Shown: positions 29,688 to 48,290 of the stretch, one piece after another
How positions within the stretch are numbered: the first letter of the stretch is position 1
Layout: each line of letters starts with the position of its first letter
Assembly (NCBI RefSeq): GCF_014646075.1
Contig: NZ_BMMT01000003.1
Location: 62,001 to 126,000, forward strand
Length of the DNA stretch: 64,000 nt
Origin: Saccharopolyspora thermophila
Lineage (GTDB): Bacteria; Actinomycetota; Actinomycetes; Mycobacteriales; Pseudonocardiaceae
Reading direction: 5' to 3'
Made by a program: the position numbers and the translations under genes
Notes under the pieces: generated by a model
Databases searched by the model: none
Seen by the model: the letters and a program-made list of their open reading frames with translations, nothing else
What the model was told of the DNA's origin: nothing

Positions 29688-31000
29688 GCCACGCCTCCAG
29701 CATCTCGCGGGACACCCGCATCCGGCCGGCCGCCATGAGCAGAAGAACGAGTGTCGCTCATGCAGCCTCCAGAACGTGCACACTCTTCCGACGTACTGCG
29801 CCCGCGCGCCCCCGCCAGCAGGCGGTCGCGTTGCGCCCCGTCCAACGCGGCGGCCACCGCGGTCCAGGCCATCGCCAACGCCCCGTCGATTACCGCGCGA
29901 TCCGCGGCCGGGGTCGCGCATGCGGCGGCGAACTCCGCCTGGTGGTTGACCGCGTCGCCGCAGTCAATCGCGATCATCGGATGGATCGCGGGCAGGTGCT
30001 GGGTCACGTTGCCCATGTCGGTGCTGCCGATGACCCGGCTCTGCTCTTCGCCTCGGTCGAGCGGTTCGCGCCCGAGCTCGGTGATCGCGCGGCGGTACGC
30101 CTCCGACAGCCATTCGTCGGGACTCAGCTCCGCGTAGACCGGGGAGATCTGCACGACTTCGTGCTCACACCCGGTCGCCGTGGCGCCCGCCTCGAAACAG
30201 GCCCGGATCCGGTTCTCCAGGCGTTGCAGGGAGGCAGCCTCGGCCGCACGCAGGTTGTAGACCGCCGCGGTGTACGCGGGAACGATGTTCGGTGCCGCGC
30301 CACCATTGGTCACGATACCGTGCACCATCTGTTGCGGTTCGAGGTGCTGGCGAAGCAACCCGATCGAGACCTGCGCGACGGTCAGCGCGTCGGCCGCGTT
30401 GCGGCCCAGTTCGGGGGCCGATGCCGCGTGCGCCGCGCGCCCGGTGTAGCGGACCTCCAGGTCGGTGATGGCCAGCGACGTCGGTCGGCAGATCTCCTCT
30501 GGCCCGGGGTGCACCAGCATCGCCATGGCCACGCCGTCGAAGACGCCGCGTTGCAGCATCAGGACCTTGCCGCCGCCGGTCTCCTCGGCCGGGGTGCCGA
30601 TCAGCCGGACCGTGATCCCCAGGTCGTCGGCGACGTCAGCCAGGGCGAGCGCCGCGCCGACCCCGGCCGCGGCGATGATGTTGTGCCCGCAGGCGTGCCC
30701 GACCTCGGGCAGGGCGTCGTACTCCGCGCAGATCCCGACCACGAGTTCCCCGCTGCCGGACTCGGCGACCAGCGCGGTGTCGAGGTCCGCGACCGGCGCG
30801 CGCACCGCGAAACCGTGCGCGTCGAGCAGGTCGGCGACCTTGGCGGCGCTGCGGTGCTCGGCGAAGGAGAGCTCCGGCTCGGCGTGAATGCTGCGGGACA
30901 GCGCGACCAGTTCCGGTTCGTGGCGCTGCACGGATTCGCGGCAGCGGGCACGCAGGTCGGCGGAGGGGTCTTCACGGTTCGAGGTCGGGGCGGTGCGCAT
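29684..31000 (-). CDS. M20-family amidohydrolase (AmiA1/AmiB1-like), upstream partner
   Basis: A 438-residue relative of its downstream neighbour. It shows GICAEYDALPEVGHACGHN for the first metal site, TPAEETGGGKVLML for the Glu-Glu pair, RYTGRAAHAASAPELGRNA for the lid and GSTDMGNVTQHLPAIHP for the C-terminal ligand block, as in AbgB-type aminobenzoyl-glutamate hydrolase subunits. The ATG at 31000 opens the conserved region (RARCRESVQRHEPELVAL); codons up to 31171 look non-coding. Together the pair could form a two-subunit amidohydrolase; that is inference. Confidence 0.85.
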   Translation of the reverse strand: MRTAPTSNREDPSADLRARCRESVQRHEPELVALSRSIHAEPELSFAEHRSAAKVADLLDAHGFAVRAPVADLDTALVAESGSGELVVGICAEYDALPEVGHACGHNIIAAAGVGAALALADVADDLGITVRLIGTPAEETGGGKVLMLQRGVFDGVAMAMLVHPGPEEICRPTSLAITDLEVRYTGRAAHAASAPELGRNAADALTVAQVSIGLLRQHLEPQQMVHGIVTNGGAAPNIVPAYTAAVYNLRAAEAASLQRLENRIRACFEAGATATGCEHEVVQISPVYAELSPDEWLSEAYRRAITELGREPLDRGEEQSRVIGSTDMGNVTQHLPAIHPMIAIDCGDAVNHQAEFAAACATPAADRAVIDGALAMAWTAVAAALDGAQRDRLLAGARGRSTSEECARSGGCMSDTRSSAHGGRPDAGVPRDAGGVA

Positions 31001-45803: not shown

Positions 45804-46511
45804 CTACCCGGACCGCTCGGACGCGTGCTCGGCGAGGCCGCGGACGATCAGGTCGAGACCGAACTCGAAGCGCTCGTCGGCGTCGCCGGACATCAGCGCG
45901 GGCAGCATCGCCACGATCGTCGGGAACCGCTCGGCGGGCAGTTGCGTGAGGTACTCCCCGACCTGCCGCATCCGGTCGCCGAGCTCCGCCTCGTCGAGCC
46001 CGAAGCCCGCGCTGCGCTCCAGGGCCGCAGCCGTGCCGTAGAGGGCGAGGATGTCGACGCCGAAGGCGACCGCGCGGTCCGGGAGTCCGGCCGAGCGCAG
46101 GATGGCGAGCATCGCCTCGGTGATGCCCAGCGCGTTCGGGCCGGTGGGTGCGGGGGTGCGTAGCACCACCTGGGCGATGCCGGGGTGCCTGGCGAGCACC
46201 TCCACCTGCCGGCGGATGACGGCCTTGATCTGGTCCTGCCACCGCCGCGGGTCGGGCCGGGGTACCTCGATCTCGCCAAACACCAGGTCGAGCATCAGCT
46301 CGTGCAGCTCGTCCTTGTTGCGGACGTGGGCGTAGAGCGAGGCGGCGCCGGTGCCGAGGCGCTGGGCGACCTTGCGCATGCTCACCGCGTCCAGTCCCTC
46401 CGCGTCGAGCAGGTCGAGCGCGGTGCGCACGATCAGCTCCAGGCTCAGCGGCTGTTTGGGCGCTCGGCTGCGCGCGGCTCGCTGCTGCCAGGGCGGGACG
46501 GGCACGGACAT
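45804..46511 (-). CDS. TetR-family regulator of the adjacent FAD monooxygenase
   Basis: A 235-residue regulator with helix-turn-helix residues about 25-70 ([40 protein letters not shown]) and a C-terminal TetR domain of the type found with drug or xenobiotic sensors ([32 protein letters not shown]). The ATG at 46511 begins the conserved protein. It is transcribed divergently from the monooxygenase across 112 bp holding a phased palindrome array, so it very probably represses both genes. Confidence 0.88.
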
Positions 46512-46540: not shown

Positions 46541-46612
46541 GAACACCGTACTTGACGCGAACACCGTTCGATTGTAGAACAGTGTTCGTTCGTCGAACGG
46601 CGTTCGCGAGAG
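46541..46612. promoter_or_regulatory. Four operator units (GAAC-N3-GTTC type) repeated exactly every 18 bp
   Basis: Units begin at 46541, 46559, 46577 and 46595. Three contain perfect GAAC...GTTC palindromes of 11 bases (GAACACCGTTC, GAACAGTGTTC, GAACGGCGTTC); the first has GTAC instead of GTTC. The array fills the TetR/monooxygenase divergent promoter region. Confidence 0.8.
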
Positions 46613-46623
46613 AGGGATTCATC

Positions 46624-48183
46624 ATGTCGGAGCGCGTTCCCGTCCTGATCGTCGGAGCCGGGTTGTCCGGCCTGTCGACCGCCGTCTTCCTGGGCCTGCA
46701 CGGCACGCGGTCGCTGGTCGTCGAGCGGCACGCGAGCACGTCGTCCCACCCCAAGGCACGCGGCCAGCAGCAGCACACGATGGAGGCGCTGCGGCTGGCC
46801 GGTCTGGAGGCCGAGTTCACCGCCGCCTCGCCGAAGAGCCGGGGATTCCTGTTGCGCATCGCGGAAAGCGCGAGCGGGCCGGTGTTCCGCGAGATCCTGC
46901 ACGACACGTTCCTGCCGATGGGCCACCTCACCCCGGCGAGCGCGGCCGACGCCAGCCAGGCCAACGCCGAACGCATCCTGCTCGCCCGCGCCCGCGAACT
47001 CGGGGCCGAGGTCCGCTTCGGCACGACGCTGGAGTCCTTCGAGCAGGACGACGCTGGCGTGCGGGCGGTGCTCGCCGACGCCGGAGGCAACCGCATCGTG
47101 CAGGCGGACTACCTGGTCGCCGCCGACGGCCACCGCAGCCCGATCCGCGAGCAGCTCGGCATCGGCACGCACGGCCGCGGCACCCTCGGCCACTCGATCC
47201 ACTGGCTGGTGCGCGCCGACCTGTCCCACGTGGTCGGCGACCGGCAGGTCATGTACTACCTGCAGAACCCGCGCCTGTCCGGCGGGACCGGCGTGCTGGC
47301 CAGCACCGACCGCGCGGACGAGTTCGTGGTCGGCGTCGGCTTTGACCCGCGGCGGGAGGGTCTGGCCGACTTCACCGAGCAGCGCCGCCTCGAGCAGATC
47401 CGGCTGGCCACCGGAGTCCCGGACCTGCAGGTGGAGATCCTGCAGGCAAACACCACGGAGATCGGTATGCGGGTGGCGGACCGGTTCAGCGACGGCCGGG
47501 TGTACCTGGTCGGCGACGCCGCGCACACCATGCCGCCGCAGGGCGGGATGGGCGGCAACACCGCGGTGATGGACGGCTTCTACCTCGCGTGGAAGCTCGA
47601 CGCGGTGCTCCGCGGCGAAGCCGGTCCGGGCCTGCTGGACAGCCACGACGCGGAGCGGCGACCGGTGGGCGAGCTGATCGCGGAGAACCAGTACCGCAAC
47701 GCGCTCGTGCGCAACCTCCCCGACCGCGCGGTCGAGGGCGACGCGCCGATCGAGGATCCGGCCCTGCTGATGTTCGGCTACCGGCACAACGGCGCGGTGG
47801 TCCGCGAGCCCGGTGATGCGGGGGAACTGCTGGAGGACCCGACCCGGCCGACGGGCCGACCGGGGTCCCGCGCCCCGCACGTCGTCCTGACCACCCCGAC
47901 CGGTGAAGTGTCCACAATCGACCTCTTCGGTCGCGGTTTCGTCCTGCTGACCGGCTCCGCCCAATGGGCGCGCACCGCGGAGCGGGTGGCCACCGAGCTC
48001 GGCGTCCGCCTCCGCCCGCAGCTGATCGGCGGCGAGACCACCGGCGACTGGACAGGCCCGTACGGGGTGCGTGAGGACGGCGCGGTGCTGGTGCGTCCGG
48101 ACCGCTTCATCGCCTGGCGCAGCCCGGGCCCGGGAACCGCGGCGGACCTCGAGAAGGCCCTGCGCACCGTCCTCGATCGCTGA
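46624..48183 (+). CDS. FAD-dependent aromatic monooxygenase
   Basis: A 519-residue flavoprotein of the PheA/TcmG/MhpA group. It has the FAD motif VLIVGAGLSGLSTAVFLG at residues 6-23, the DG motif YLVAADGHRSPIREQLGI, the GD motif RVYLVGDAAHTMPPQGGMGG, and a C-terminal thioredoxin-like domain of about 100 residues. Such enzymes hydroxylate phenolic or polyketide-like substrates with NAD(P)H and O2; some inactivate antibiotics such as rifamycins. The ATG at 46624 lies 12 bases after the operator array. The substrate is unknown, but TetR control suggests induction by a xenobiotic or antibiotic. Confidence 0.88.
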   Translation: MSERVPVLIVGAGLSGLSTAVFLGLHGTRSLVVERHASTSSHPKARGQQQHTMEALRLAGLEAEFTAASPKSRGFLLRIAESASGPVFREILHDTFLPMGHLTPASAADASQANAERILLARARELGAEVRFGTTLESFEQDDAGVRAVLADAGGNRIVQADYLVAADGHRSPIREQLGIGTHGRGTLGHSIHWLVRADLSHVVGDRQVMYYLQNPRLSGGTGVLASTDRADEFVVGVGFDPRREGLADFTEQRRLEQIRLATGVPDLQVEILQANTTEIGMRVADRFSDGRVYLVGDAAHTMPPQGGMGGNTAVMDGFYLAWKLDAVLRGEAGPGLLDSHDAERRPVGELIAENQYRNALVRNLPDRAVEGDAPIEDPALLMFGYRHNGAVVREPGDAGELLEDPTRPTGRPGSRAPHVVLTTPTGEVSTIDLFGRGFVLLTGSAQWARTAERVATELGVRLRPQLIGGETTGDWTGPYGVREDGAVLVRPDRFIAWRSPGPGTAADLEKALRTVLDR

Positions 48184-48188
48184 GATCG

Positions 48189-48273
48189 GTCAAGGGCACC
48201 TTCTGCCTGAACTGGTCCCCGGTGGTTGGACTGTGGAATTCAGTGCCTGTTCAGGCTGCAAGGTGCCCTTGAC
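48189..48273. terminator. Long interrupted inverted repeat between convergent genes
   Basis: GTCAAGGGCACCTT at 48189 pairs perfectly with AAGGTGCCCTTGAC ending at 48273. After a short mismatch, GCCTGAAC pairs with GTTCAGGC. The loop is 36 bases. It fits a bidirectional terminator, though it is longer than needed. Confidence 0.65.
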
Positions 48274-48290
48274 TCGTCACTTGACCGCGG

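Follow-up and report, generated by a model that had tools for sequence, protein, structure and literature searches.

A predicted ActR-type operator region with 18-bp steps between divergent repressor and monooxygenase genes of Saccharopolyspora thermophila

In Streptomyces coelicolor, the repressor ActR (of TetR_C_1 type) is encoded divergently from its target gene, actA. PMC3511530 describes three ActR complexes in EMSA and three operators within the DNase I footprint, prints these operators as GAACGGGCCACCGTTT, CGCGACCACCGTTCCAT and AGAACGGTGGTCGTTCG, and reports 23-fold less light from the target promoter with ActR in cis. For SCO7222/SCO7223, that paper (PMC3511530) gives three TGGAACGNCGTTCCA operators with three protected regions and a 72-fold drop in light when the repressor was present in cis, and for TetR/tetA two 15-bp operators. 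In SimR/simX, according to PMC5812520, the repressor is released by simocyclinone, the divergent gene encodes an exporter and the two operators are separate. We found no literature on the locus described below, or on a conserved 18-bp array of ActR type, among the open-licence PMC matches listed.

The locus lies in a 64,000-nt stretch of the Saccharopolyspora thermophila genome (GCF_014646075.1, NZ_BMMT01000003.1, positions 62,001-126,000, forward strand), hereafter the window, whose numbering is used throughout. Judging from sequence comparison, we hold it highly probable that the 18-bp repeat found there serves as operator region for a TetR repressor of the ActR type, placed over divergent promoters.

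Predicted sites and promoters between the two genes

The repressor gene occupies 45804..46511 on the minus strand and encodes a TetR-family protein of ActR type (235 aa; TetR_N and TetR_C_1, PF02909), with its start codon at 46511-46509 and GAGGAGG at 46526-46520. Its best solved relative was ActR (E 8.6e-49; 44% identity over 215 aa). The gene at 46624..48183 on the plus strand encodes an RdmE-like FAD-dependent aromatic-ring monooxygenase (519 aa; FAD_binding_3 and Rng_hyd_C) and is likely the one under the control of the repressor. Its product scored below the NCBIfam cut-offs for both the RdmE aklavinone hydroxylase (557.4 bits versus 700) and the DnrF-type aklavinone hydroxylase (495.2 bits versus 650). 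The domain content of the two products bears out a sequence-only reading of this DNA, in which the neighbours of the repeat had been named as a TetR gene and a FAD monooxygenase gene. The flanking genes, read by eye from their translations (uracil phosphoribosyltransferase-like, a second TetR-like, zinc dehydrogenase-like and deoxyribose-phosphate aldolase-like), give no hint of a biosynthetic cluster around the pair. Past the monooxygenase gene, before the dehydrogenase-like gene that converges on it, positions 48188-48275 form a strong hairpin (-55.1 kcal/mol, z -5.45). Parts of it were matched at 12 further genomic places, of which four lie within ~170 bases of a contig start; the hairpin looks like an interspersed repeat.

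Between the repressor and monooxygenase genes, four GAAC-N3-GTTC sites begin at 46541, 46559, 46577 and 46595, in exact 18-bp steps. Read directly, these coordinates confirm the earlier description of four GAAC units, three perfect and one degenerate. Predicted site 1 (GAACACCGTAC, 46541..46551) carries one mismatch, GTAC for GTTC. Predicted sites 2 (GAACACCGTTC, 46559..46569), 3 (GAACAGTGTTC, 46577..46587) and 4 (GAACGGCGTTC, 46595..46605) are perfect palindromes, flanked by C/G at sites 2 and 4 and by A/G at site 3.

Perfect GAACNNNGTTC matches numbered four in the window against 0.51 expected, with three of the four in the array, and none of 100 shuffles reached four. Matches with at most one mismatch showed no excess (16 versus 17.7 expected), so the degenerate site 1 is notable by its location and not as a match. 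Pairs of perfect sites 11-40 bp apart were absent from 60 first-order Markov windows, which contained 34 perfect sites in all. Across the complete 5.36-Mb genome, a search for two sites at an 18-bp step, allowing at most two mismatches, returned the array and one further place (two mismatches). The lone GAACGATGTTC at 30280, considered as a further operator, sits in a peptidase-like reading frame and was set aside as a chance match. The 13-bp CGAACRNYGTTCG occurs at four places in the genome, two of them within the array; the single matches outside it (G000:C1:421033 and G000:C10:50267) may represent extra operators or chance.

The array lies over two overlapping putative promoters, one for the enzyme gene and one for the repressor gene. 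The putative -35 of the monooxygenase gene, TTGACG (46552..46557, plus strand), adjoins site 1 and is separated by a 17-bp spacer, occupied by site 2, from the putative -10, TAGAAC (46575..46580, plus strand), the GAAC of which is common to the -10 and site 3. Site 3 also overlaps the inferred transcription start (~46587), and site 4 falls in the inferred 5' untranslated region. On the minus strand, the putative -10 of the repressor gene, TACGGT (46550-46545), is covered by site 1 and lies 33 nt from the in-frame start codon; the merging of site 1 with this hexamer would account for its GTAC half. A generic promoter scan returned no promoter here, because TAGAAC is without the final T that the scan demands.

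We propose that each GAAC-RNY-GTTC palindrome would be bound by a repressor dimer of its own, next to the dimers on the neighbouring sites. A dimer on site 1 would then occlude the repressor gene's own -10 as well as the border of the monooxygenase -35, one on site 2 the spacer, one on site 3 the monooxygenase -10 and transcription start, and one on site 4 the bases transcribed first. Since the sites would block both promoters, both genes would be held down together. Once a small ligand, probably aromatic polyketide- or quinone-like, had freed the repressor, the cell would make a flavin hydroxylase acting on compounds of this kind; we infer an aromatic polyketide-like inducer because the family names of the output suggest such compounds.

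Conservation and layout at homologous loci

Scanning genomes with the repressor as query yielded 16 loci, ten of them from named Saccharopolyspora (73-79% identity). Sites 1-3 stood at 18 bp in all ten, site 1 had the GTAC half in each, and one locus (L003) had a single mismatch in site 2. Loss of the spacing or the palindromes in close orthologues, which the sequence-only reading had said would speak against it, did not occur for these three sites. Site 4 followed at 18 bp in five of the ten and at 20 bp in four, and was absent from one (L009). Related site groups were also present in Actinoplanes (L011), Amycolatopsis (L012), Solirubrobacter (L013) and a Chloroflexota MAG (L014), and no related site group was found at the other two scan loci, L015 and L016.

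Allowing up to three mismatches, we found the combined pattern of promoter and operators in 14 of 22 same-genus genomes. In the 17 genus genomes examined for both the pattern and the repressor (E up to 1e-30), the two agreed throughout, with both present in 10 and neither in 7. Repressor homologues were found in 109 of 249 genomes at the family level (E up to 1e-30) and in 11 of 296 at the class level (E up to 1e-45); in a phylum sample, 3 of 396 genomes had the DNA pattern when two mismatches at most were allowed, one of the three being the window's own. One same-genus locus (L032) has five sites, and the monooxygenase similarity there spans residues 344-443 only; the gene is perhaps broken or replaced.

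Removal of identical 150-bp upstream stretches left 94 loci, from which L015, L016 and L070-L072 (distant or SCO7222-like) were taken out to give 89. Family-level repressor matches were taken as loci in two steps, 30 and then 40 more, out of a larger set. L021, L023, L024, L028 and L032 entered through DNA-pattern searches, so that their arrays are in part a product of the selection; protein searches also reached the genomes of L024 and L028 (as L043 and L040). A site was counted as clustered if it matched with at most one mismatch within 45 bp of another. On this rule, which admits some sites by chance, and over loci many of which are closely related and do not give independent counts, we found no clustered site in two loci, two sites in 10, three in 32, four in 32, five in 10, six in one and eight in two, with at least three in 77 of the 89. 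The four sites of the window had been taken as exceptional; with 32 loci having four, 32 having three and 13 having five to eight, they are not. The two loci with no clustered sites (L085 and L115) count against the main reading.

TTGAC was found two bases before a site-2-like palindrome in 80 of the 89 loci, and the other nine, which are without an exact anchor, again count against the main reading. Among the 80 anchored loci, sites 2 and 3 were 18 bp apart in 66, 19 bp in six, 17 bp in three and 16 bp in three, and no site 3 at a measurable spacing from site 2 was found in two. Several of the six loci with a 16-17-bp spacing have no canonical -10, which is a further point against the main reading. 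A TA-leading hexamer stood 17 bp past TTGACN in 74 of the 80, in a search that took any such hexamer and tried 17 bp first; when the search was repeated for every spacer from 8 to 33, any other spacer gave at most 18 of 80. The -10 read TAGAAC in 60 anchored loci. A TANNNT hexamer of the repressor gene was found at site 1, likewise in 60 of the 80, and in 29 of these 60 an in-frame start codon follows 6-7 nt on, as in a leaderless gene (for example L053, L055, L063 and L088).

Where an extra repressor-proximal site is present (L047, L049 and L051), it is this site that has the GTAC half, and site 1 is a perfect palindrome; in L023 and L099 site 1 is perfect and there is no extra GTAC site, which does not fit the main reading. 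The spacing between sites 3 and 4 ranged from 14 to 23 bp over the 80 loci: 18 bp in 31, 17, 19 and 20 bp in 12 each, other values in five, and no site in eight.

The array was kept where the divergent gene is another one. Divergent reading frames (n=88) were picked by third-position GC, so that some picks may be wrong, and L085 gave none; they encoded FAD_binding_3 in 35 loci, MFS_1 in 28, SnoaL_3 in 15, ABC_tran in two and 'other' in eight. On a quick, midpoint-rooted repressor tree, in which 27 of 90 inner branches are open forks, at least four changes of target class were needed with the eight 'other' loci left out. The control region therefore seems older than its present outputs.

Origin of the 18-bp register

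Under the preferred reading, it is the promoters that fix the exact phase in which sites 1-3 of the window stand, through the 17-bp spacer and the operator half contained in the -10 TAGAAC. The phase of site 1 would follow because the operator is merged with the opposing -10 and abuts the -35. The 18-bp step would also pack palindromes of 11-13 bp without overlap. In L063, L065 and L088 site 3 slips to 19 bp, yet the promoter spacer is 17 bp with TAGAAA.

Promoter geometry as the sole cause of the phasing is weakened by two extended arrays, which in this respect speak against the main reading. L076 has eight sites with six 18-bp steps and a last step of 20 bp, L074 keeps an 18- or 36-bp register across one degraded unit, and in both the sites extend upstream of the target promoter, beyond the reach of -35/-10 geometry. 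The register in these two loci needs another cause: either an 18-bp unit was duplicated in tandem, or the way in which dimers pack was under selection. More generally, the MFS-linked loci L074, L075, L076 and L079 have five to eight operator-like sites, mostly in 18- or 36-bp steps, and in three of these loci (L074, L076 and L079) the site groups continue beyond the target promoter on its upstream side.

We consider it rather unlikely that the 18-bp phasing itself was selected for contact between neighbouring dimers, with cooperative, switch-like repression along the DNA as the outcome. Such selection would agree with 18 bp being the commonest spacing of adjacent sites (151 of the 229 intervals tallied in the 89 loci), with the six successive 18-bp intervals of L076, which lie partly outside any recognised promoter, and with the register of L074 spanning a degraded unit. 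However, the variable spacing of sites 3 and 4 (18 bp in only 31 of 80), the 19-bp position of site 1 in the ActR-like loci and the helical offset all argue against it: at 10.5 bp per turn, 18 bp makes 1.7 turns, so that neighbouring dimers would face different ways. The three separate EMSA complexes of ActR, as described in PMC3511530, fit sites filling one by one and argue against all-or-none filling in ActR. The step from 18 bp alone to cooperative binding, taken in the sequence-only reading, is not supported, given that -35/-10 geometry accounts for sites 1-3 and that the distance to site 4 varies around 18 bp among relatives.

A wider version of the same idea, which we regard as doubtful, would make the ActR-type repressors a transferable cassette, in which two to eight sites set the depth of repression by dimers packed every 18 bp around the helix and the outputs (flavin hydroxylase, MFS pump, SnoaL-like protein, ABC pump) are exchanged. 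The 18-bp register of the extended arrays would then itself be selected, as a helical repressor coat.

It is improbable that the regular phase is a leftover from an 18-bp unit having been duplicated in tandem, in which case its exactness would say nothing on function. The repeated GAACNNNGTAC-N7 units of L076, two of which are followed by ttgac, point that way, as does CGAACACCGT, which recurs at 18 bp in the window (repeat family D5), but the palindromes are kept while their centres and spacers vary between loci. For sites 1-3, which hold their phase in distant relatives, conservation speaks against duplication; as the origin of the extended arrays it is possible.

That the palindromes belong to some other regulator, such as LexA or an ECF sigma factor, is barely credible: the GAAC and GTTC half-sites are identical, but each of the four window sites has an N3 spacer, the array and the repressor gene were both present or both absent in 17 of 17 genomes, the two stay together when the divergent gene differs, and the ActR operators are alike. 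The LexA SOS box is GAAC-N4-GTTC and was rejected as an identity on the spacer. With the co-occurrence in all 17 genomes, the array kept beside other divergent genes and the ActR parallel, it is very probable that the sites serve as operators for the TetR-type repressor encoded next to them, as the sequence-only reading had predicted.

Comparison with known systems

SCO7222/SCO7223 of Streptomyces coelicolor resembles the window in having a TetR-type repressor divergent from a monooxygenase gene and operators that share GAAC-N3-GTTC (GAACGNCGTTC core). The Streptomyces look-alikes of SCO7222 (L070-L072) differ in having perfect sites 27-31 bp apart with GG/CC flanks, and their repressors are 27-29% identical to the window repressor. 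We therefore rejected SCO7222-type operators as the identity of the window sites, whose flanks differ and whose steps are 18 bp versus 27-31 bp. In TetR/tetA, as proposed for the window, dimers on palindromes block divergent promoters; there are two operators and not four, and the tetA operator sequence differs from the window sites. SimR gave a sequence match to the window repressor, and its target is an exporter, unlike that of the window. In the QacR system, a single operator takes up two dimers, whose dyads overlap and are offset by a short distance. The window dyads are 18 bp apart and the palindromes are separate and non-overlapping, so a QacR-type double-dimer operator was rejected; the suggestion of QacR-like binding made in the sequence-only reading falls with it, as every dimer would sit on a separate palindrome of its own.

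The ActR layout was compared through L124-L126, where the repressors share 90-92% identity with ActR and the printed ActR operators are present; the match is thus to these loci and the printed operator strings and not to the act region of S. coelicolor itself, a limit on the main reading. L124-L126 read GGCCACCGTTT, then GACCACCGTTC at +19 bp and GAACGGTGGTC at a further +18 bp, over TTGACA, 17 bp and TAGAAC. Like the window, they have the promoter with the 17-bp spacer and TAGAAC, with sites at -19, 0 and +18. They differ in the step from site 1 to site 2 (19 bp versus 18 bp in the window) and in weaker palindromes (GACCACCGTTC and its reverse complement), both of which count against the main reading, and in having no fourth GAACNNNGTTC-like site with at most one mismatch, versus four sites in the window. 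The ActR target is an MFS exporter gene, versus a monooxygenase gene in the window. L127, with a repressor 52% identical to ActR, has five sites at 18, 18, 17 and 18 bp. Seven further ActR-like Streptomyces loci (L128-L134, 38-44%) have another layout, with site groups 68-100 bp apart. AT-rich GATATATCTTG-like stretches lie between the GAACNNNGTTC-like groups of these seven loci and are possibly sites of another regulator.

We call the window locus ActR-type on both protein and layout. Its TetR_C_1 repressor is nearest to ActR among solved structures, and ActR was placed among its homologues in the quick midpoint-rooted tree; at least three adjacent sites lie over TTGAC-17 bp-TAGAAC, in steps of 18-18-18 in the window and 19-18 in L124-L126.

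An uncharacterised repressor-monooxygenase pair of Saccharopolyspora is now tied to the ActR group, together with an exact map of which site would block which promoter. The same module before efflux pumps, flavin hydroxylases and SnoaL-like proteins offers a search pattern for genes that possibly answer aromatic compounds, and the arrays of two to eight sites form a natural series on the effect of site number and spacing. The operator region looks like a well-conserved example of a chemical-sensing switch whose type is known, not a new kind of switch.
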